A DNA stretch of 64,000 nt from Odiellus spinosus. Lineage: Eukaryota > Arthropoda > Arachnida > Opiliones > Phalangiidae. Shown piece after piece: positions 145-59,112 of the stretch. The notes beneath the pieces were generated by a model, which ran no database searches, was not told the origin of the DNA, and saw nothing but the letters and a program-made list of their open reading frames with translations. Made by a program: the position numbers and the translations under genes. Within the stretch, counting starts at the first letter, position 1. Each line of letters starts with the position of its first letter. The stretch lies in NCBI GenBank assembly GCA_963920705.1, contig OY987237.1, forward strand, positions 11,996,601 through 12,060,600. Direction: 5' to 3'.

Positions 145-1010
145 AAAGAACAACAGCAACTCCCCATAAGAGTCTGGGTCCACGTAATGTTAAAAATTTT
201 CGTCTCTTTTATGATAAATTCGAATTATATTATTAAAATAGGGTAGTTGGGGGATAATTTAAAGCTAAAATTCGAGCGCACAACTGTAAATTTTGGGAAT
301 TACAACGAATGGAAGGTTTCTTCCATAATGTAAAGAATAGGAAGAATCTATGACTTCCGTGCCGGATATGAAAGCCTTCCCCCACACGAAAATCTTGAAC
401 GGTTATTATTTTAGATTCATAATTATGTTAGGAAAATATTAGGAAAGAATTATTTTGTAACTGCCACGGGTATAGTGCTGGCGGCAAAATGAAATTCGTA
501 TTTTTTTGGTCTACTATGCCTCGAAATCCTCGAAAACGCCTGTAGAAGTGTTCCACTTGTCAAGCATTCATGCAGTAGGCTTTTGCTAGCTTTACAGGGG
601 CCGTGCAAAGACTATATAGCTTACTTGAATAGTCTTTGGTGTATAAGAAACTCGAAAAATAAATAGAGAAATCATACCAATTAGAAGATACTGGAGTAGT
701 ATCTTTAATTTTTATTTCATATTAAACAAAACACACTTGTATAAAACGGACAAATTATTCATTTAACGCTAAGGTTTTCTACGTTTAACGTATGTCTGGT
801 AGTTCAAGCTCAGTGGCATCTTCACACACTACACGCAATTTTGACTGGTACCAACTGCCTCGATCTTCATGGCGACGATAACCAAGATACCAGATTACGC
901 TGCTAACGTGAACACAAGTACCTATCGTCAAACTACCACCTTTGCAATTGCAATACCAGCCTTTAATGGCATTTGCACCTGTCCCGTTCGGTACATAACG
1001 AATTAGAGCT
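145..1010 (-). repeat. Left 866-bp inverted arm of the transposon
   Basis: This is the reverse complement of 2557-3422. Read on the minus strand it starts inside the SWIM-domain coding region, passes the stop codon near 792, and continues through about 640 bp of non-coding DNA to the element end. The few differences from the other arm (for example near 350 and near 495) suggest the inverted duplication is recent. Confidence 0.9.
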
Positions 1011-1635
1011 CCCGATGAATAAATATGGCTCTTTCCACAAATATACTTGTTCTCACTTCGGCTTTTACCCTGGTTCGTGTACTAACACCGCAAATGAAGC
1101 AAGTCTTTGGCAGGGGCCGAACACAACTGTGCTTTATGGCAATAGTGTTTGATGACGTACGCTTTCATGGTAATTGCGACGTTGATGGCTGAGGTATTGG
1201 TGACGGTGATGGATTAGATACTGTGGACTTTGTTGGTTCAGGTACTGTGGACGTTGATGGCTCAGGTACTGTTGACGTTGATGGATTAGATACTTGCGTC
1301 ATTTGTCTTCGTTTTTGTGGTGGAGACGATGACGTTGAAGAGCCATGATCACTACTGAAGGACGATTTGCTAGCATTTAAGAACGTTTGAAACTTTCGTG
1401 ACAGACCCGAGCACTTTAAACAAATCTTCGTTGTTTTGCTATTAATTACAAGTGGTAATAACCCTTCACTAAAACGAAGAAAACGAGCAAAGCCAGCCTT
1501 TACGTGAGTGCCTATACCTCTACTTGTACTATTGGTAACTTTCCGATTGCACGCGTAACATGTATTTGGAGCCATCTCCAAATTCCAAGTGACTCTCACA
1601 TTGATGTTATTGATAAGGAAAGTTCTTAAGATCAT
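1011..1635 (-). pseudogene. Inverted N-terminal fragment of the transposase
   Basis: The minus-strand frame from 1635 to 1165 encodes a Cys-rich segment with a CYAC pair and an ICLKC pair, followed by a low-complexity stretch of Ser/Thr/Pro repeats (STVPEP, PSTS). A likely start is the Met of MAPNTCYAC. Below 1165 another Cys pair appears (CFICGVSTRTR, near 1100) in a different frame, so at least one frame break lies between. Paired CxxC fingers before the catalytic core are typical of animal DDE_Tnp_4-like transposases, so this is probably the missing N terminus of the gene at 1665-2782. It points the wrong way for that gene and runs directly into the SWIM end carried by the left arm. It could instead be a separate divergent gene of the element. 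Confidence 0.6.
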
Positions 1636-1664
1636 GGTTCAAACCAGATATTACAATTTTTTTA

Positions 1665-2782
1665 ATGTTTATAAAAACAGGTTTAATTATTTTTCGCCAA
1701 CCTGGCTGGCAAAAAATATTAAAGACGTCTTTAATATATGTAGATGGCACCTATATCAAGGTTGGAAGATCCAAGGACTATACCGTTCTTCACAAATCCT
1801 TCTGTGTGCACAAAGGCCAGCATATCCTCAAGCCAATGTTAATGGTAACAACTACGGGTTACATAATAGATATAATCGGACCCTACTTTGCTAATGGCCG
1901 CAATAACGACGCGCGCATTTTAAACCATTCTATCAAAAAGAGAGAAGAACTCCAGTCTTTCTTTCAAGTTGGTGACGTTGTACTGGCAGACCGCGGTTTT
2001 CGAGACTCCAACAGCGTACTGACTGAACTGGGTGTGGATCTACAAATGCCTTCGTTCTTGTCTAAAGGCGAGAAGCAAGTAAACACGCAAGAAGTTAATC
2101 GTTCCCGACAAGTAACGTACTTCAGGTGGCCGGTTGAAGTTAGAAATGGGCATTTGCAGACGGTGTATCGTTTTTTCAAAACCGTATACCTGTGCATATG
2201 TTACCATTAGTTCCGGAACTTCTTCAAATTGCTGCTGCGCTGTTGAACGCCTACCACCCGGAGTTACATCTTAAAGGTTCCTGGGAAGACTCCGTCGAAA
2301 AAATGCTGGCAGTCTCTACGAAAGAAAATCCTCAATGGCAACGAATTGAGGATAGTGAATTTCAAGACTTCCCTGTACTTCGTGAAAGTGATGTACGTGA
2401 GGTGGTAATGAGCGACTTTAAAACGAAACGCGCTGAATCTTATGTGGCGTTGACTATAGAGAAATCCGGCTCTTTCAGCGTCGAAGTGTCCAAAGTTGAA
2501 CATGACTTAATTCGTATACGCGTGCCTGGTCAATTTTCCACCTCAGCTGTTCACCAAGCTCTAATTCGTTATGTACCGAATGGGACAGGTGCAAATGCCA
2601 TTAAAGGCTGGTATTGCAATTGCAAAGGTGGTAGTTTGACGATAGGTACTTGTGTTCACGTTAGCAGCGTAATCTGGTATCTTGGTTATCGTCGCCATGA
2701 AGATCGAGGCAGTTGGTACCAGTCAAAATTGCGTGTAGTGTGTGAAGATGCCACTGAGCTTGAACTACCAGACATACGTTAA
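1665..2782 (+). pseudogene. DDE-superfamily transposase with C-terminal SWIM finger, frameshifted
   Basis: The first frame (1665-2210) has the DDE core: VDGTY (D27), VLADRGFRD (D109) and RWPVEVRNGH (E158), the spacing and motifs of the DDE_Tnp_4 fold. The reading frame then shifts by one base in or next to the short A run at 2178-2181. The second frame (2192-2782) continues with a helical LVPELLQIAAALLNAY stretch and ends in a SWIM zinc finger of pattern CxC-x9-CxH (C142, C144, C154, H156 of that frame). The catalytic triad is intact, but the N-terminal zinc-binding part is absent on this strand, so the copy is unlikely to be active as it stands. The coding end overlaps the right inverted arm. 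The family assignment rests on motifs only. Confidence 0.75.
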
Positions 2783-3422
2783 ACGTAGAAAACCTTAGCG
2801 TTAAATGAATAATTTGTCCGTTTTATACAAGTGTGTTTTGTTTAATATGAAATAAAAATTAAAGATACTACTCCAGTATCTTCTAATTGGTATGATTTCT
2901 CTATTTATTTTTCGAGTTTCTTATACACCAAAGACTATTCAAGTAAGCTATATAGTCTTTGCACGGCCCCTGTAAAGCTAGCAAAAGCCTACTGCATGAA
3001 TGCTTGACAAGTGGAACACTTCTACAGGCGTTTTCGAGGATTTCGAGGCATAGTAGACCAAAAATATACGAATTTCATTTTGCCGCCAGCACTATACCCG
3101 TGGCAGTTACAAAATAATTCTTTCCTAATATTTTCCTAACATAATTATGAATCTAAAATAATAACCGTTCAAGATTTTCGTGTGGGGGAAGGCTTTCATA
3201 TCCGGCACGGAAGTCATTGATTCTTCCTATTCTTTACATTATGGAAGAAACCTTCCATTCGTTGTAATTCCCAAAATTTACAGTTGTGAGCTCGAATTTT
3301 AGCTTTAAATTATCCCCCAACTACCCTATTTTAATAATATAATACGAATTTATCATAAAAGAGACGAAAATTTTTAACATTACGTGGACCCAGACTCTTA
3401 TGGGGAGTTGCTGTTGTTCTTT
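2557..3422 (+). repeat. Right 866-bp inverted arm of the transposon
   Basis: This is the mirror of 145-1010. It starts inside the SWIM-domain coding region, includes its stop codon (2780-2782), and ends in GGGAGTTGCTGTTGTTCTTT at the element boundary. Confidence 0.9.
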
Positions 3423-3943
3423 AAGTTTTTTATTATCGTTAAAATGCTTATGAAGGTAACTTGCATTATGACAAAGATTAGTTTTTAAATTTGATATATA
3501 AAGTTAATAACCTTAACGACGAGTTCCAAGTTTCCATTGGCTCGCGTAATTCAAAAGTAGTCGGATAATTTCTATTGGCTAGCTATTCGAGTAACGTACC
3601 CTAATTTAAAATTCCGCTATAATAAATTATTGTTATTGAATCCCAGTGTTGGAGGGCCTAGTGTTGGATTATAAACAATGCATGGGTATAATTAATCACG
3701 CCTAAACCCACTAAAATTAGACCAATTTTACGAATTGGCATTAACTATAGTTGACATAAAATAAGGGAAATTACCAACTGGAATTCGATCTTCGATAAAA
3801 ACTAATTTAATACACGTCGTTTAAAGTTTTAATTATAGTAATGGAAGAACTAAAAGTATTAGAGTTCAGATTTAACTATTAGTATATTTAATTTCCATTG
3901 GTTGTTGTTTTAACCAATGGTTTATAGTCTTTCTATAAGAAAT

Positions 3944-4285
3944 TTAAAGGGAGGTATTTTTTGGACACGTTTTTGGTGTTTCAATAAATTTCTGAAGTTT
4001 GGTAAAGTTTGAAAAAAAAAAGTAAAAATAAATTCGGACCAATCATATTGTTATTAACATGCAAAGAATAAGCCGGTGTTTGATGATTAACACCTTGGGC
4101 CCATTATCTTTATTTGAAGACATTACAAGCGCTGTTGAAGGCTGAAATATAATTGGCCCGAATTTATATTTATTTTTTCAAATTTTAATAAAATCCAGAA
4201 ATTAATTTAAAGACAAAAAACGTGTCTCAAAATCGAATACGTTTTTCAAAAGATGTTCCATTTTTAGCTCCAAGTTTCCCTTTAA
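3944..4285. mobile_element. TTAA-bounded MITE with TTAAAGGGA ends (family I, copy 1)
   Basis: Both ends read TTAAAGGGA inward. Long imperfect inverted arms (GGACACGTTTTTGGTGTTTC on the left, its mirror near 4195-4235) flank a centre with a second inverted pair around GGACCAATCATATTG. Related copies lie at about 41835-42197 and 58730-59112. The small open frame at 4222-4407 falls mostly inside this repeat and is not a gene. Confidence 0.65.
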
Positions 4286-4734
4286 GAAAAATTAAATTAA
4301 CTGCTGATTTAATCTTATTGTTATATGGTGTTGATAGTAAAACGAAAAATTTGACCACGGAGAGTATCAACCTGACCTTATTTGAAATTTTCACACGACC
4401 TTACTAAAAATAATCATGTTTTATCGAACTACAAATCAATATAAAACACCTTAAAAGCGCGTCAACTTTTCAGGAAAATGATACGAATTAAATAGCGAAC
4501 ATAAAATTGAATTGGAGGATTTGAAACTAGGTTATAGGAATCAAATTTATTCGAATAATACCTCAATAATTTCAATTTCCTTTTCTACACCAATGAAACG
4601 GAATAAATACAGTCTATCTTTATCCTGGTCAGTTTTTAAAGTAAATTTGTCACCAATTATTTATTCGGATTATATTTAATTTTAAGTTTAATTTTATACC
4701 CCTGAGTTGTGTTCTTAAAAAACAGTTTTGGACC
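4286..4734. other. AT-rich gap, nothing recognised
   Basis: Unique-looking AT-rich DNA between the MITE and the tandem array. No coding, RNA or repeat signal was found. The same holds for 3423-3943. Confidence 0.5.
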
Positions 4735-7147
4735 TTTTGAAAACTTTTGGACCTTTTGAAAACTTTTGAAAACTTTTGAAAACTTTTGAAAACTTTTTGA
4801 AAACTTTTGAAAACTTTTGAAAACTTTTGAAAACTTTTTGAAAACTTTTGAAAACTTTTTGAAAACTTTTGAAAACTTTTTGAAAACTTTTGAAAACTTT
4901 TTGAAAACTTTTGAAAACTTTTTGAAAACTTTTGAAAACTTTTGAAAACTTTTGAAAACTTTTTGAAAACTTTTGAAAACTTTTTGAAAACTTTTGAAAA
5001 CTTTTTGAAAACTTTTGAAAACTTTTTGAAAACTTTTGAAAACTTTTTGAAAACTTTTGAAAACTTTTTGAAAACTTTTGAAAACTTTTTGAAAACTTTT
5101 GAAAACTTTTTGAAAACTTTTGAAAACTTTTTGAAAACTTTTGAAAACTTTTGAAAACTTTTGAAAACTTTTTGAAAACTTTTGAAAACTTTTTGAAAAC
5201 TTTTGAAAACTTTTTGAAAACTTTTGAAAACTTTTTGAAAACTTTTGAAAACTGTTTGTAAACTTTTGAAAACTTTTTGAAAACTTTTGAAAACTTTTTG
5301 AAAACTTTTGAAAACTTTTTGAAAACTTTTGAAAACTTTTTGAAAACTTTTGAAAACTTTTTGAAAACTTTTGAAAACTTTTTGAAAACTTTTGAAAACT
5401 TTTTGAAAACTTTTGAAAACTTTTTGAAAACTTTTGAAAACTTTTCGAAAACTTTTGAAAACTTTTCGAAAACTTTTGAAAACTTTTCGAAAACTTTTGA
5501 AAACTTTTCGAAAACTTTTGAAAACTTTTCGAAAACTTTTGAAAACTTTTCGAAAACTTTTGAAAACTTTTCGAAAACTTTTGAAAACTTTTCGAAAACT
5601 TTTGAAAACTTTTCGAAAACTTTTGAAAACTTTTCGAAAACTTTTGAAAACTTTTCGAAAACTTTTGAAAACTTTTCGAAAACTTTTGAAAACTTTTCGA
5701 AAACTTTTGAAAACTTTTCGAAAACTTTTGAAAACTTTTTGAAAACTTTTGAAAACTTTTTGAAAACTTTTGAAAACTTTTTGAAAACTTTTGAAAACTT
5801 TTTGAAAACTTTTGAAAACTTTTTGAAAACTTTTGAAAACTTTTTGAAAACTTTTGAAAACTTTTTGAAAACTTTTGAAAACTTTTTGAAAACTTTTGAA
5901 AACTTTTTGAAAACTTTTGAAAACTTTTTGAAAACTTTTGAAAACTTTTTGAAAACTTTTGAAAACTTTTTGAAAACTTTTGAAAACTTTTTGAAAACTT
6001 TTGAAAACTTTTTGAAAACTTTTGAAAACTTTTTGAAAACTTTTGAAAACTTTTTGAAAACTTTTGAAAACTTTTTGAAAACTTTTTGAAAACTTTTGAA
6101 AACTTTTTGAAAACTTTTGAAAACTTTTTGAAAACTTTTGAAAACTTTTTGAAAACTTTTGAAAACTTTTTGAAAACTTTTGAAAACTTTTTGAAAACTT
6201 TTGAAAACTTTTTGAAAACTTTTGAAAACTTTTTGAAAACTTTTGAAAACTTTTTGAAAACTTTTGAAAACTTTTTGAAAACTTTTGAAAACTTTTTGAA
6301 AACTTTTGAAAACTTTTTGAAAACTTTTGAAAACTTTTTGAAAACTTTTGAAAACTTTTTGAAAACTTTTGAAAACTTTTTGAAAACTTTTGAAAACTTT
6401 TTGAAAACTTTTGAAAACTTTTGAAAACTTTTTGAAAACTTTTGAAAACTTTTTGAAAACTTTTGAAAACTTTTTGAAAACTTTTGAAAACTTTTGAAAA
6501 CTTTTGAAAACTTTTTGAAAACTTTTTGAAAACTTTTTGAAAACTTTTTGAAAACTTTTTGAAAACTTTTTGAAAACTTTTGAAAACTTTTTGAAAACTT
6601 TTGAAAACTTTTTGAAAACTTTTGAAAACTTTTGAAAACTTTTGAAAACTTTTGAAAACTTTTGAAAACTTTTGAAAACTTTTGAAAACTTTTGAAAACT
6701 TTTGAAAACTTTTGAAAACTTTTGAAAACTTTTGAAAACTTTTGAAAACTTTTGAAAACTTTTGAAAACTTTTGAAAACTTTTGAAAACTTTTGAAAACT
6801 TTTGAAAACTTTTGAAAACTTTTGAAAACTTTTGAAAACTTTTGAAAACTTTTGAAAACTTTTGAAAACTTTTGAAAACTTTTGAAAACTTTTGAAAACT
6901 TTTGAAAACTTTTGAAAACTTTTGAAAACTTTTGAAAACTTTTGAAAACTTTTGAAAACTTTTGAAAACTTTTGAAAACTTTTGAAAACTTTTGAAAACT
7001 TTTGAAAACTTTTGAAAACTTTTGAAAACTTTTGAAAACTTTTGAAAACTTTTTGAAAACTTTTTGAAAACTTTTTGAAAACTTTTTGAAAACTTTTTGG
7101 GACCTTTTTGGGACCTTTTTGAAAACTTTTGAACCTTTTTGAAAACG
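4735..7147. repeat. 2.4-kb minisatellite of a GAAAACTTTT decamer (10-, 11- and 21-bp forms)
   Basis: The basic unit is GAAAACTTTT, with or without one extra T. Blocks differ in register: alternating 10 and 11 bp (21-bp repeat) over roughly 4930-6420, with a sub-block at about 5440-5740 where the extra T is a C; 11-bp units at about 6515-6580 and 7050-7100; and about 43 pure 10-bp units at about 6620-7050. Both edges carry the same variant, GGACCTTTT or GGGACCTTTTT. The unit lengths average 10, 10.5 and 11 bp, close to one helix turn. No stop codon falls in several frames, so long meaningless open frames appear on both strands. Confidence 0.97.
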
Positions 7148-7920
7148 TCAAAAATTTATATTTTTTTCCAATATTTGTCGTAATTAACCATAATTTTCAT
7201 ACGAAAGGTATATGACTTTCTGGATTAAGTACTTTTACGAAAAAGACCGCGCGAAAACGACCTAATCACGTGGCTAAACGGGCGATAACTACGCAACCAT
7301 ATTGATGACATATTGCGGGGAACTTTTATTTAAAAAAAATGTCGAAAAAGTCGATTATAAAATATATTCTTAACGATCTTTCCATTTTGAATTCATGAAA
7401 ATTCCGGTGTGATAGCCTGACTTTAAGCCATCATTGGTCTAATTATAGTCTTTGAAAACGTTTCTCCTCTCTAGCGGGGCAGTTGACCTCAAAATAAATC
7501 AGTAAACAGAACCATGGGAACTAAAAATCGACTTTTAACTTGTTATAAGGTTCGATAAGATGTCTTTTAACACGTGTGATATAATATTATTAGTATAGGA
7601 AAAATTCAAGAAAAAAAATCTTTTAAGTAGATCATATTTGGAGAACGCCGAAATTTCCCACCAAACAAGCTTATAGGGTTTTCATTTTACGAGTAACTAG
7701 CCTTGAAAACTATCGAATTTCTTGATAATCGGGTCTAAATTTAGGTATATAGATGGTGAACGAGCTTATTATAGCCTTTTTCTCGGTATATACGCGACAG
7801 GTCAGCTGTAAATTTGAAGTTTAATTTACACTTAATTTTCCTCTCGCAAAACGATGCATAGTTTGTAAAGTTCATATTTCCAAGTTAATTAAATTTGTTG
7901 TTACCAAGTTTTTTCAACTC
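7148..7920. other. AT-rich gap, nothing recognised
   Basis: No gene, repeat family or structured element was recognised in this stretch. Confidence 0.5.
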
Positions 7921-8364
7921 TTAAAGGGAGAATACAACCTAAGAACAAGTGATTTTTATCGATTCCTTATTATTTAAATATGTATAATCCACTAATAGAA
8001 AAATTTACGAACAAATATTAAACTAGAAATAAATTTAAAACTTACCCGGAAAATAGACTTAGCGGGATTCATGGAGATTCTAATTTCCTCGCGTATAAGG
8101 TCTAGCGACCAATCGAACGCGATTGTAAGTCTCGTGGAGATCTCGCGTGAGCGACGGGCCTTTGCTCATTGGTCGCTAGACCGTACGCGTGGACAATTCA
8201 GCTGATCTCCTTGAATCTCGCTAAGCCTTTTTTCCGGGTAAGTTTTAAATTTATTTCTAGTTTAGTATTTGTTTAGTGAAGTTTTTATCGGTGGATTAGG
8301 CCTATTTAAACGATAAGGAATCGATAAAAAAATGACTTGTTATTAGGCTGCATTCTCCCTTTAA
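7921..8364. mobile_element. MITE with long inverted ends and TTAA target site (family A, full copy)
   Basis: TTAA stands at 7921-7924 and 8361-8364, and the ends read AGGGAGAAT inward. Inverted arms of about 150 bp contain AACTTACCCGGAAAATAGAC on the left and its mirror on the right. An inner inverted pair (GGTCTAGCGACCAAT and its mirror) flanks the centre. TTAA duplication is typical of piggyBac- and Kolobok-type elements; the superfamily is not resolved. Partial relatives lie at about 15480-15864 and 23740-24118. Confidence 0.85.
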
Positions 8365-8599
8365 GGAATATATTTAGTTTTTGTTACTATTAAAACCGAT
8401 ATTCAAAATTTGACACCTCGATCTTGGCTGAATTGTTTTTAAAGTGTGGCTGTCACGACATCGGTAAAATTTGCAATTTCTAAAATACTCGCAATTTTTG
8501 TTAATAAATCGGAATTCTAATTTCCTCGCAAAGATCATCCCGTTTACATCACGCAATCAATGGATCTTGAATCATTTTAATAATTTGACTTGCCCTGAC

Positions 8600-8881
8600 C
8601 AAGGAGGATTAGACAAGGAGAAGAAATGTGGGGACGGCGCGGTTCCTACTGCGTCGGCCTAAACTCCCACTCTGGGAGAACGGGGGTAGAGACGTTTCGT
8701 GGTAAAATGTTGTCGCGTGGGTAAAACGAATCCTTTATGAGACGCGCTAGCTAGCGACCACGTGACAACAGTTTACCTCGAGAATTTCCTATCCCCCCCT
8801 TTCCACCCGAGTGGGAGGTTGGCTCTTCTCTCTCTAACTCAACGCAGCCCCACATTTCCTCTCCTTGTCTAATCCTCCTTG
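8600..8881. mobile_element. 282-bp MITE with 7-bp target duplication (family B, copy 1)
   Basis: The ends read CAAGGAGGATTAGACAAGGA and its mirror. The flanks carry an exact 7-bp duplication, CCCTGAC (8593-8599 and 8882-8888). A second copy in opposite orientation sits in an HMCES intron at 57850-58141. There is no coding capacity. Confidence 0.88.
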
Positions 8882-8888
8882 CCCTGAC

Positions 8889-9663
8889 AGAACGATTTAC
8901 ACGAGATTGATCACAAAAAAAACAGAAAAAAAAACAAGTCTGCATTTGAATCGTTCAACTTTTAAAAGCTAAACGTCAACACACTTTTGACATTCAAATT
9001 GCTTTGGCGAAAACGTGACCCCAATGACCCCTGGTGCCGTAGTAAAACAAATCCAACATCGGAGAAGCAATTATACTCTGGTTTTTTTTTAAATAGTTAC
9101 GAAGTTACTGAACCTGTTTCGGGTGGAGTTGAAATTTTCTTTAATTATCTGAATAGAAATTACCGTTAAATCTGGAAGAAAAACTCCCGCTGAGAAAATG
9201 TTTGGAAAGCGAAAAAATATAAGCTACTTTTTCCTGGTTTTATTGGGCAAAATCACAGCGGTGGTGGCGATTCGTCTCCGAAATAATTCAAAGTTATCGT
9301 ATCAAAAAAAGGTTTTGCCGTTAGATTTTCCTCACGTTGTTAACAAAATCAGTTTTTGATAAGCGTATGAAATTGAAAATTGGTATTTTTCCTCTATTTC
9401 AAGTGGTACTGTCGCCATATTTTTCGAAAGTTATGTATATATTAACTTTTCCATATTATTAATAACCCCCATCCTCGAGATTTGTTCACGGGCCATCTCA
9501 TATGTATTCCCCAAACTTCTCCCTCACGACGCTATGTCGTCTGCTGACCGCAGCTATTTATGTCACTAGGAAATGATACTTCCGGTTTACCTAAGTCTCA
9601 AAAATCTATTTGATTTGAGGTCAACTTTTAACCTATTTGAATATAGGTGGCGGGATCAGTAAG
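8889..9663. other. Gap with no recognised feature
   Basis: Short open frames here (for example 8987-9169) have no recognisable family content. Nothing else was found. Confidence 0.45.
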
Positions 9664-13864: not shown

Positions 13865-14345
13865 AAGCTGTTCGAAAATGGTTGGTGGAAATGCTCGAAA
13901 AGGGTTGGTGGAAATGCTCGAAAAGGGTTGGTGGAAATGCTCGAAAATGGACGGTGAAAATGCTCGAAAAGGGCCGGTGAAAATGCTCGAAAAGGGCCGG
14001 TGAAAATGCTCGAAACAGGGTTGGTGGAAATGCTCGAAACAGGGTTGGTGGAAATGCTCGAAACAGGGTTGGTGAAAATGCTCGGAACAGGGTTGGTGAA
14101 AATGCTCGGAACAGGGTTGGTGGAAATGCTCGAAAAGGGCCGGTGAAAATGCTCGAAAAGGGCCGGTGAAAATGCTCGAAAAGGGCCGATGAAAATGCTC
14201 GAAAATGTTCGGTGAAATGCTCAAAAATGGTTACTAAAAATGCTCGAAAGGGTTGGTGGCAATGCTCGGAACAGGGTTGGTTAAAATGCTCGAAAAGGGT
14301 CGGTTAAAATGCTCGGAACAGGGTTTGTGAAAACGCTCGAAAAGG
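13865..14345. repeat. 23/24-bp minisatellite
   Basis: About 20 tandem units of the type GAAAAGGGTTGGTGGAAATG plus CTC. Variants include GGGCCGGTGAAAAT and a 24-bp form with AACAGGG. The minus-strand open frame across it (His/Phe/Pro-rich) is an artefact of the repeat. Confidence 0.92.
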
Positions 14346-15479: not shown

Positions 15480-15864
15480 GAATACCTTATCCTTTAAATA
15501 GGCCTAATCCACCAGTAAAAAAATTGACAAACAAATATTAAACTTGAAATTAATTTAAACCTTACCTGGAAAATAGGCTTAGCTGGATTCATGGAGATTC
15601 TGAATTTCTTCGCATTGATGAGTCATCGACCAATCGGCAAAGATCCGTCATTAAGGCGAGATCTCTATGAGAAACACCAATAACATTCGATTGGTTGCTG
15701 AACCTTCAATGCGAAGAAATTCAGCATCTCAGTGAATCCAGCTAAGCCTATTTTCCGGGTAAGTTTATTTCTAGGCCTATTTTCCGGGTAAGTTTATTTC
15801 TAGGCCTATTAAAACGATATGGGTTCGATAAAAATATTTTATTAGGTTGCATTCTCCCTTTAAA
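15480..15864. mobile_element. Family A MITE, partial copy
   Basis: The right end is intact (GCATTCTCCCTTTAA) and the left end has decayed. The right arm carries a local tandem duplication of about 30 bp around TATTTTCCGGGTAAGTTTAT. Confidence 0.75.
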
Positions 15865-21027: not shown

Positions 21028-50391
<29,364 letters not shown>

Positions 50392-56049: not shown

Positions 56050-58496
56050 ATGTGTGGACGGTTTGCTTGCACTCTCGAAGGTTGTCATTACAAGAGAGCT
56101 TGCGCGTATAAAAATAAAGGGGGTGATTTAATTATACCCAAGTACAGTTACATTCATGATAGTTCTCCTTCATTCTCTCCAAGCTTCAATATACCACCGA
56201 CCAGTATTACGCCCGTAATAGTAAAGGGTAAATGCGAAAATGAAAGTTTTGAAAGAGTGATATGTGATATGCGTTGGGGTTTAATACCTCCGTGGAACGA
56301 TTCTAATAACATAACTAACGCGAAAGCCGAAACTATTTTGGAAAAGGGGATATTCAGAAAGCCCTTTACAACTGGTCAAAGATGTGTGGTAGCAGTTAAT
56401 GGGTAAGCTATATATGTTACAAAGACTACAGCGCAAAGTATTTATTTTAATGTATGACATTTAAATCGAGATTTTACGAGTGGCAAGCGGTTGGAACAAA
56501 ATTTAAGCAACCGTACTTTGTTTATGCTCCTTCGGATATTAAATGGGAAGGTCTTGACTACGATGGTTTAGAAAAGTATTGGAGTTCTTCCATAGGATGG
56601 ACAGGACCAAAACTTTTAAACATGGCTGGAATATTCTCCCCCACCAATTCCAACAATCCGGTTTGAACTACTTGCTCAAAAAACAGTTTGCTTTTGAATC
56701 CTGCTTCTATTTGTCCTACAATTTTAACTTTGCCAAATCCTGACTATCAAACTTTTTAAAATGTGACCATTTAAAAAGATGCTCTTAAACCTCATTTGCT
56801 TCTTTGGTTTTTTTCTTCCATTGGTCATGTTGCAAACTTCGTTGTTTGTCAATTTTACTCGATCATAGTCACCAAAGGACTAATGGGAGGAAAGATCATT
56901 CAAATTGAACCAACCATTAGCTAAGCCCCTGGTGTTGCTTAGCCTATTTACGCGTACCTTTTGCTACAAATATTTTCCAGAACGCCCCACCTTATTCTTA
57001 TGCTGTTGTGACTATAGAATCCCAGGAACCATTTGCGTCCATTCACCACAGAGTTCCTGTAAGATTATATCTTAGGGCAACTTTAATACGGAATGTGCAC
57101 TCTGGCAGCAGCCAGAGGCATTTCATAATTCCTCTAGCTCTCATTCCTCTTTCATATAGCAAACGATAATCCTCAAATTTCTGCTTTTCGGAAGAAGTTT
57201 CTCTGGGTTCTTACAAACCTGGAAATATCAGGGAAAATTGTAATTTTTTTTTGCGAAAAACTGAAGTTAGGGAAATGTATGTGGAACTCTAACTTAAGAC
57301 ACCCAAAACTGTTGCAATTCTATATTTCTAACATAATTTTTGCTTTTAAATTAGTACTCTTTTAATTTATTAAGATGTGCAGGGAAATTAACTAAGAGCA
57401 GTTTTAAAAACCTGGAAATATCAGGAAAATTCATTTTTCCAAATCTTATACTAACCTTGTTGGGCCAATGCCAGGGGTGCATTCCGTTGAAATTGCGTAT
57501 TGGGCTTATATACTAAATAGTGCATTTATTCAAGGTTATCTTGGAAATGCAAGACGAAATAGATACTTGGCTTAATAATATAAGCCCTGTGGAAGAGGTA
57601 AATGCTCTGCTAACTCAATAAATAATCGTTTAAAGGCACTATCTGCTCAAGAATTCGCCCCTTGAAAAGGATCATGCCTTACACACACAGCCTAGCTTAG
57701 GATTGTGCAATTTGTTATGTCTAACAACCGATAGAAGACAACTTTGAAGGGGATTTACGTATCGCAGATAGTCCCTTTAAAATGATATATATCTGTCTCA
57801 TTTTCAACTCTGTATAATAATTAGCTAACAAACCAAACTTTACTACGGGCAAGAAGGATCAGATAAGGAGAGGAAAAGTGGGGCTGCGTTGAGTTAGAGA
57901 GAGAAGAGCCAACCTCCCACTCGGGTGGAAAGGGGGGATAGGAAATTCTCGAGGTAAACTGTTGTCACGTGGTCGCTAGCTAGCACGTCTCATAAAGGAT
58001 TCGTTTTACCCACGTGACAACAATTTACCACGAAGCATCTCTACCCCCGTCTGTCCCCCGTTCTCCCAGAGTGGGAGTTTAGGCCGACGCAGTAGGAGCC
58101 GCGCCGTTCCCACTTTTCCTCTCCTTATCTGATCCTTCTTGCTACGGGTAAACATTTTTCGTGGATATATGATTGATCGGGTTTTTAATTGTTGCGGGGA
58201 AAGTGTCTAGTTTAATACGGACTTTATCGTAAAAGGTCGTGTCACTGCTCAAACCCCCGACCAAGCTCGAATGGTACACTGTAGCTGATACAGTTGGAAA
58301 CTCGAGAAACAAAGACCCTTCTTGTTTGGCCAAAGTCGAGCCCAAAAAGACTCCGCAGAAAAAGACCCCTCAAAAGAAAGCCACGTTACCTGGACAGACG
58401 TCCATTACGTCGTTTTTTAAAACATCCTCTAACCAAAGTTGCGAAAAGGGTTCGGGTGACTACGCTGGTGCCAAAAGAACCAAATTGGATTTTTAA
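56050..58496 (+). CDS. HMCES: HMCES, SRAP-domain abasic-site DNA-crosslink protein
   Basis: Coding exons are 56050-56402, 56471-56660, 56981-57058, 57535-57597 and 58236-58496; phases close to 314 aa (human 354). The protein starts MCGRF, so Cys2 becomes the N-terminal nucleophile after Met removal and forms the thiazolidine crosslink with abasic sites in single-stranded DNA. The other SRAP active-site residues are present: Asn90 (TNAKAE), Glu121 (GFYEW) and His203 (IHHRVP). MRWGLIPPW and FNIPP are family signatures. The tail after about residue 265 is basic, with a doubled KTPQK, then a canonical PIP box QTSITSFF (282-289) that would bind PCNA at replication forks. In known HMCES proteins this pathway shields abasic sites from error-prone bypass. 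Intron 2 uses a weak GTTTGA donor; intron 4 holds two MITEs. Confidence 0.95.
57630..57780. mobile_element. Family D MITE in HMCES intron 4
   Basis: TTAA lies at both ends (57630-57633 and 57777-57780), with ends AAGGCACTATCTGC and GCAGATAGTCCCTT. It is the second copy of the element at 10645-10808. Confidence 0.78.
57850..58141. mobile_element. 292-bp MITE with 7-bp target duplication in HMCES intron 4 (family B, copy 2)
   Basis: The ends read CAAGAAGGATCAGATAAGGA and its mirror. CTACGGG is duplicated at 57843-57849 and 58142-58148. It is inverted relative to 8600-8881 and ends 94 bp before the last HMCES exon. Confidence 0.9.
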
Positions 58497-58729: not shown

Positions 58730-59112
58730 CGTTTTCAAGAATTTTTTTTGGAATTTTAAGTCACGTTTCTGGTGTTTAAATTAATATCTAAAAATTGGTA
58801 AAATTTGAAAAAAGGCAAATATAAATTTGGACCAATCATATTATTTCGCTTGTAATGCCTCAGACCTTGGTGCCTATTCTTTTAATGTTAGAACATTACA
58901 GGCGCTGTTGTAGGCTGAGATAATATGATTGGTCCCAATTTATAATTACCTTTTTTTTTTTTTACAAATTTTACCAAACTAAAGAAATTAATTTAAGCAC
59001 CGAAAATTTGTGTAAAAATTCCGAAGAAATTCTCAAATAGCTTTTTGGCATCTGGTAATTCCGAAAATAAATTCAAAAGCTGTTCCATTTTTAAGCTACA
59101 AGTTTCCCTTAA
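58730..59112. mobile_element. Family I MITE, copy 3
   Basis: It has the GACCAATCATATTATTT core with its mirror AATATGATTGGTCCCAA, and the right end CAAGTTTCCCTTAA at 59109-59112. It lies between the convergent HMCES and ACSF2 genes. Confidence 0.6.

Follow-up and report, generated by a model that had tools for sequence, protein, structure and literature searches.

A 2.4-kb array of A4CT4G-type units in Odiellus spinosus: a probable AT-rich minisatellite with A- and T-tracts half a helical turn apart

Introduction

Minisatellites vary in copy number between individuals. They are described, in an excerpt of PMC8122249, as arrays of 0.5-30 kb with a typical unit of ~15 bp. AT-rich minisatellites (VNTR), including the expanded human FRA16B and FRA10B, carry an AT-rich head-to-tail unit over kilobases, can potentially form single-strand secondary structure and are candidates for instability. 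At fragile sites of the FRA16B/FRA10B type, distamycin or BrdU induces a cytogenetic gap. The repeat units of FRA16B and FRA10B are 33 or ~42 bp (PMC9714581). Other related systems are the curved polymers (GA4T4C)n and (A4T4CG)n, the periodic An/Tn clusters (PATCs) of C. elegans, and the AT-rich pericentric satellites of insects, for which a bend is predicted (PMC8122249, excerpt).

Here we describe an array of A4CT4G-type units in the window, i.e., the whole stretch of 64,000 nucleotides that was analyzed. Its head-to-tail units exceed those of microsatellites (2-6 bp), and its length lies within the minisatellite range; compared with the typical minisatellite unit, its unit of 10-11 bp is on the short side. 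It shares with FRA16B and FRA10B the AT-rich unit and the folding potential and is likewise a candidate for instability, but its unit is far shorter than theirs and it is known from this one sequence alone. As in (GA4T4C)n and (A4T4CG)n, A4 and T4 tracts recur with the helix; however, one base lies on each side between A4 and T4, which gives 5/5 instead of 4/6 bp and cancels the tract rolls. The array resembles PATCs in its one-strand A-tracts at a ~10-bp period over hundreds of bp. In PATCs the An/Tn runs lie ~10-bp periodically along one helix face, according to the available part of PMC3819648, whereas the T-tracts of the array lie on the opposite face, and the array as a whole is an exact tandem repeat. 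Pericentric satellites occupy pericentric heterochromatin with many large arrays of the same unit; here a single array of 2.4 kb was seen in the window, which also holds sequences resembling genes at distances of tens of kb and gives no sign of a pericentric place.

Results

Structure of the array

The array extended over ~2.4 kb from 4726 to 7146, the left limit being taken from direct reading of a TTTTGGACC variant unit. Tandem Repeats Finder (TRF) placed it at 4734/4735-7146, with 232 copies at period 10 (score 3898) and 116 copies at period 21 (98% matches, score 4074). Decomposition at the GAAAAC cores identified 227 cores between 4739 and 7141, which delimit 226 complete units. Exact copies of three forms made up 222 of these units, and together with the two periods this bears out the existence of the array as reported by the first-pass annotation. 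The forms were GAAAACTTTT (133 units), GAAAACTTTTT with an extra T (75 units) and GAAAACTTTTC with an extra C (14 units). The other four were edge variants at 4739, 7088 and 7121 and a degenerate 21-bp unit at 5247-5267. Core-to-core steps were 10 bp in 133 cases and 11 bp in 89, and steps of 19, 20, 21 and 33 bp occurred once each. Units in the interior varied by the additional T or C, which occurred in blocks, and by the one degenerate unit. The features are as follows.

4726..7146, no strand assigned: whole array of A4CT4G-type units (GAAAAC cores and both TRF scores as above)
4726..4757, plus strand: left edge, TTTTGGACC variant units in alternation with TTTTGAAAAC (direct reading; odd 19-bp unit at 4739-4757)
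4758..5435, plus strand: chiefly 21-bp (10+11) blocks with brief 10-bp breaks, containing the degenerate unit (segmentation)
5436..5719, plus strand: 21-bp C-variant block, GAAAACTTTTC alternating with GAAAACTTTT (segmentation)
5720..6475, plus strand: 21-bp (10+11) blocks of 17 + 16 + 3 dimers (segmentation)
6506..6571, plus strand: six pure 11-bp units (segmentation)
6614..7043, plus strand: 43 perfect 10-bp units (segmentation)
7044..7087, plus strand: four pure 11-bp units (segmentation)
7088..7146, plus strand: right edge with two GGGACC variant units and one of GAACC (direct reading; odd units at 7088 and 7121)

The 10+11 (21-bp) form occupied 1,638 bp, compared with 550 bp for the 10-bp form, the largest block of which covered 430 bp. 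Pure 11-bp runs reached 66 bp and 44 bp and were never longer. Long blocks of each register, as annotated earlier, were thus found for the 21-bp and 10-bp forms but not for the 11-bp form, and the opposite-hand superhelices proposed for 10- and 11-bp blocks are left without a long 11-bp block. All 14 CpG dinucleotides in 4739-7140 were located at the 14 TTTTCGAAAA junctions of the C-variant block.

The order of the 226 units was far from random. The longest strict alternation (33), the longest run (43) and the lag-2 identities (198) were reached in none of 10,000 shuffles, the maxima of which were 16, 26 and 129, respectively. Units of the GGACC type were found at both ends, at 4726-4734 and 4749-4757 on the left and as two GGGACC and one GAACC within 7099-7140 on the right. 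Among the 226 units these variants were confined to three edge ones. Such variant units at both edges are the residue expected of growth from inside a mixed seed.

Phase of the A- and T-tracts

The spacing from A4 to A4 averaged 10.54 bp, and the 10.5-bp phase was held across the whole array (vector strength 0.70), in agreement with the helical phasing annotated for the A4 tracts. A T-tract is the A-tract of the other strand and has the same narrow minor groove. From A-run to next T-run the centers were 5.0 bp apart in 149 cases, 5.5 bp in 76, and 6.5 and 4.5 bp in one each; from T-run to A-run they were 5.0 bp apart in 136 cases, 5.5 bp in 76 and 6.0 bp in 14. These distances amount to half a turn of B-DNA, therefore placing neighboring tracts on opposite helix faces.

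The dinucleotide spectra displayed the same pattern. In the 10-bp block, AA alone had a power of 29.5 at 10 bp, while AA+TT had 0.00 at 10 bp and 44.8 at 5 bp. AA+TT power in the 21-bp block was 0.50 at 10.5 bp vs 55.7 at 5.25 bp, and in the C-variant block 0.34 vs 26.2. Both the half-turn distances and the vanishing 10-bp power indicate that the A- and T-tracts do not share one helical face on which bends would add. The annotated closeness to (GA4T4C)n did not hold either, since the centers in that polymer are 4/6 bp apart and those in the array mostly 5/5 or 5.5/5.5 bp. Membership in the PATCs was rejected because AA alone was periodic at 10-10.5 bp and AA+TT was not, as judged by the description in the available part of PMC3819648.

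Predicted curvature

Three-dimensional paths were computed from dinucleotide sets, three of which were used with both tilt signs. A curved A4T4 and a straight T4A4 are a known contrast (PMC8510488, excerpt), and sets in which the curvature of A4T4 was more than double that of T4A4 were retained, which applied to five of eight. The tilt sign was chosen by this benchmark; the Olson set passed only with the tilt sign reversed. Three of the forms modelled came from the window, namely its 10-bp, 21-bp and C-variant 21-bp blocks, and the fourth was an artificial 11-bp polymer with 28 units; 40 window segments served as background. The values below are in degrees per turn.

Set: array forms; A4T4; background mean (maximum)
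Bolshoy, tilt reversed: 9.6-11.5; 21.2; 7.7 (10.7)
De Santis: 5.3-7.0; 19.3; 6.7 (10.1)
De Santis, tilt reversed: 13.7-16.6; 28.2; 8.0 (12.7)
Olson, tilt reversed: 10.1-11.5; 15.0; 3.9 (6.1)
AA wedge: 12.8-15.7; 26.0; 7.7 (11.9)

Overall, the five sets predicted 5-17 (5.3-16.6) degrees per turn for the array, 15-28 for A4T4 and background means of 4-8. With these parameters and a tilt sign set by the benchmark, the 10-bp block had 0.31-0.73 of the A4T4 curvature. The DNase I trinucleotide scale, which is symmetric and tilt-free, gave 5.91 for the 10-bp block, 7.92 for A4T4, 2.48 for the background and 1.21 for T4A4. The resulting ratio of 0.75 is the result most favourable to strong curvature. 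Among the failing sets, Bolshoy with the other tilt sign placed the array at 17.5-25.4, but inverted the benchmark contrast, with a curved T4A4 and a straight A4T4; Olson with unreversed tilt gave 6.9-7.9, and a roll-only set (benchmark 16.0 vs 9.9) gave 0.1-3.0 for the array.

In the 10-bp unit the rolls of the AA and TT tracts cancel exactly, and only junction steps and tilts remain. This cancellation and the tilt-free DNase I scale were kept from a linear phase sum, the tilt convention of which is opposite to that of the three-dimensional path. A polymer with A4 and a GC-rich spacer in place of T4 had a predicted bend of 8.8-23.2 degrees, compared with 5.9-14.8 for the array unit. The half-turn T-tract thus lowered the predicted bend in four of the five sets, the exception being Olson (8.8 without the T-tract vs 10.9).

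These calculations suggest that the array duplex is probably mildly to moderately curved, to a degree that depends on the model, because its A-tracts are offset by half a turn from its T-tracts and so face the other way. In the curvature models the blocks exceeded the background on most of the scales used and stayed below A4T4 in the five retained sets and on the DNase I scale. The strong curvature predicted by the first-pass annotation is therefore unproven and on balance doubtful.

Single-strand folding

Each strand was predicted to fold on itself into 4-bp A/T stems with one mismatch per 5 bases, alternately C.C and G.G. The computed energy of the 10-bp block was -23.1 kcal/mol per 120 nt for the minus strand, with a z of -6.2 and none of 200 shuffles as good; for the plus strand it was -11.5 kcal/mol per 120 nt, with a z of -1.1 and 32 of 200 shuffles as good. 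Controls with the same parameters gave -24.2 kcal/mol for (CAG)40, -43.8 for (CTG)40 and 0.0 for (GAA)40. The minus strand was close to (CAG)40 in this respect, and (CTG)40 was far stronger. A hairpin route to expansion of the array is plausible from these predicted energies; given the z value of the plus strand, such an aid would be strand-specific at best.

Genomic setting

The window resembles the genomic DNA of an animal and contains coding pieces that are interrupted. Pfam matches included WD40 repeats at 53.8-55.0 kb, a SRAP domain at 56.0 kb and a weak AMP-binding match, below the cut-off, at 61.5 kb. We take these pieces to be COP1, HMCES and an acyl-CoA synthetase, respectively. A piece at 26 kb, for which no Pfam match was found, presumably codes for the N-terminal portion of a Kruppel-like factor. 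Next to the array no gene was recognised, by methods that did not include a eukaryotic gene predictor. The window contained no Rfam match at gathering scores and no tRNA or tmRNA, and a structured RNA was rejected as a candidate on these grounds. The T4/T5 tracts are weak candidates for Pol II T-tract termination, given that a 5-nt T-tract is reported to cause little termination (PMC7615648, excerpt).

Twelve TRF regions, including the A4CT4G-type one, covered 6,727 of the 64,000 bases (10.5%), a sum that omits four shorter TRF rows, all below 55 bp. The window is thus rich in tandem arrays. The periods of the others, among them 23, 30, 31, 103 and 172 bp, displayed no common helical rule. Two were 23-bp minisatellites. 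The one at 46566-47445 (38.3 copies, 97% matches) had three open minus-strand frames, and a 120-nt piece of it had folding energies of -30.5 kcal/mol for the plus strand and -26.2 kcal/mol for the minus strand. The other, at 13872-14345 (20.4 copies), had long open minus-strand frames in three phases. A 172-bp tandem repeat at 45066-45814 (4.4 copies, 96% matches) was near nucleosomal length. Outside the array, GAAAACTTTT occurred once in the window, at 29637 on the minus strand, and TTTTGGACC once, at 40186; no further array of the GAAAACTTTT-type unit was found within the 64 kb.

A DNA transposon with a DDE_Tnp_4 transposase (1665-2207) was located at 145-3422. Its 866-nt inverted arms (145-1010 and 2557-3422), which include the end of an ORF, were 99% complementary, and this arm identity suggests a recent element. 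The inverted arms stop at 3422, 1.3 kb to the left of the array, and the inverted repeats in each flank are the flank's own; a location of the array inside a transposon was therefore rejected. A blastn comparison of the left flank (3423-4725) with the right flank (7147-9500) found no common long repeat (matches of 11-17 bp, the best of 17 bp with E 0.04), so that nothing suggests one mobile element carrying the array. Palindromic MITE-like stretches flanked the array on both sides, at 3958-4233, 7920-8365 and 8600-8884. The first resembled 58754-59019 and 41907-42044, the second resembled 15482-15863 and 23945-24064, and the third was 90.5% identical to 57847-58141. Judged by sequence, these stretches are probably small non-autonomous transposons.

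The unit in other sequences

A 26-base probe of the array had no exact match in a viral contig collection. Among bacterial and archaeal genomes it matched one contig, PCCU01000051.1, labelled as a Pelagibacterales MAG; both searches may leave out records of the window's own genome. This contig contained two short arrays of the GAAAACTTTT-type unit (5.6 and 6.9 copies). Arrays or single motifs were located at L001:2799-2854 and at L002:337-368, 2820-2832 and 3548-3623, and the three of these four sites that were compared with an ORF list each lay ~115-160 bp upstream of the start of an ORF. Ten of its 21 listed ORFs were scanned against Pfam; eight had no match, one matched a SWIM finger and one LRR repeats. 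We suspect that this contig is of viral or eukaryotic origin, was binned wrongly and has a promoter motif of the GAAAACTTTT kind. Short arrays of so simple a unit can be of independent origin.

In the PMC literature, versions of the repeat of 15-20 bases had one match, in a paper on a snake venom protease. The 10-mer by itself occurred in 49 papers. One of them, on a mushroom coral mitogenome (PMC12311936), has it once, and the minisatellite motifs in the available part are 27 bp and longer, unlike the array unit. The available part of another, a peanut FISH paper (PMC6192370), has the 10-mer once, inside a 31-base probe that is listed twice. A literature search for half-turn tract cancellation or AT-rich minisatellite hairpins found no paper.

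Discussion

The array is most likely a locally expanded AT-rich minisatellite, probably young, in apparently non-coding animal DNA, a reading to which we assign a probability of about 0.8. The seed would have been a short array of mixed units of the TTTTGGACC, TTTTTGGGACC, GAACC and GAAAAC types. It may have grown from inside via repeated tandem duplication of 10-bp and 21-bp (10+11) modules, by slippage and unequal exchange, which would have left mixed units at both edges. Each strand is nearly self-complementary, since its A4 and T4 can pair, and hairpins in replication may have aided the expansion. The ~10.5-bp spacing would then result from the spread of the 10+11 dimer. The order of the blocks, the edge variants and the half-turn alternation were observed in the sequence, and curvature and hairpin stability were computed; this route, the youth of the array and the absence of a function are inferred. 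The mean spacing is strikingly near the helical repeat, which could reflect selection and counts against a plain minisatellite.

Three readings give the array a role in chromatin, and each is improbable. The least so is a strongly curved element, in which phased A/T tracts add over kilobases and set a chromatin structure or boundary. It fits the A4 phase maintained over 2.4 kb, the position of all four block forms above all 40 background segments in three of the five retained sets and the ratio on the DNase I scale, and in several insects the pericentric satellites are described as having predicted curvature from A-T tracts (PMC8122249, excerpt). The half-turn alternation, however, cancels the tract rolls, the 10-bp block has only 0.31-0.73 of the A4T4 curvature in the five sets, and De Santis with unreversed tilt puts the blocks at about the background mean. 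A marginally less probable reading is a fairly straight, stiff rod with A4 and T4 minor-groove sites on both faces that resists nucleosomes and/or collects AT-hook or HMG-type proteins, thus acting as a nucleosome-poor spacer or barrier. The near absence of an AA+TT 10-bp component (0.00 in the 10-bp block, and 0.34-0.50 in the 21-bp blocks vs 26-56 at 5.25 bp) is in its favor, since no rotational nucleosome preference is expected without such a component, and A-tracts are described as stiff and nucleosome-resistant in the available part of PMC4066768. But the tracts of the array are short (4-5 bp). Selection itself appears still more doubtful: a "zig-zag" A-tract polymer, in which A4 and T4 alternate each half turn over ~230 turns and stay near 10.5 bp via the 10+11 dimer, would present minor-groove sites on both faces without rotational nucleosome preference, and its half-turn phase would be kept by selection for a nucleosome-poor segment coated by minor-groove proteins.

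An assembly or sequencing artefact, by which the real array length or the T4/T5 order differs, is about as unlikely as this selected polymer. Near-perfect 2.4-kb arrays are difficult to assemble, and T4 vs T5 is a homopolymer difference. The strict 10/11 alternation, which the shuffles never reproduced, is nevertheless unexpected from random homopolymer error, and the C-variant block differs by something other than homopolymer length. A low-complexity repeat encoded on the minus strand is by far the most remote reading. Over 2,402 bp the three minus-strand frames had no stop, vs a mean of 239 (minimum 217) in 200 shuffles. The unit AAAAGTTTTC, however, has no stop triplet and a length that is not a multiple of 3, which leaves three frames equally open, and the changes in unit length shift the frame throughout. 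The arrays at 13.9 kb and 46.6 kb likewise had long open frames in every phase of the minus strand. In Pfam, 32 families matched the minus-strand translation at E 0.01, with tape measure and RmuC among them; the 25 listed were of many unrelated kinds, and the matches look compositional. Coding sequence was therefore rejected, as the open frames are accounted for by unit composition.

With an expanded minisatellite as the preferred reading, the array carries a caution: the A-tract spacing on one strand is insufficient to predict bending, and the placement of the T-tracts decides. The array offers a natural test polymer in which A4-N-T4-N recurs with half-turn spacing, in one version of 10 bp and one of 10.5 bp. 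The bending sets used here differ ~2.5-fold on the 10-bp block (5.9 to 14.8 degrees per turn), and a gel could therefore help to discriminate them.
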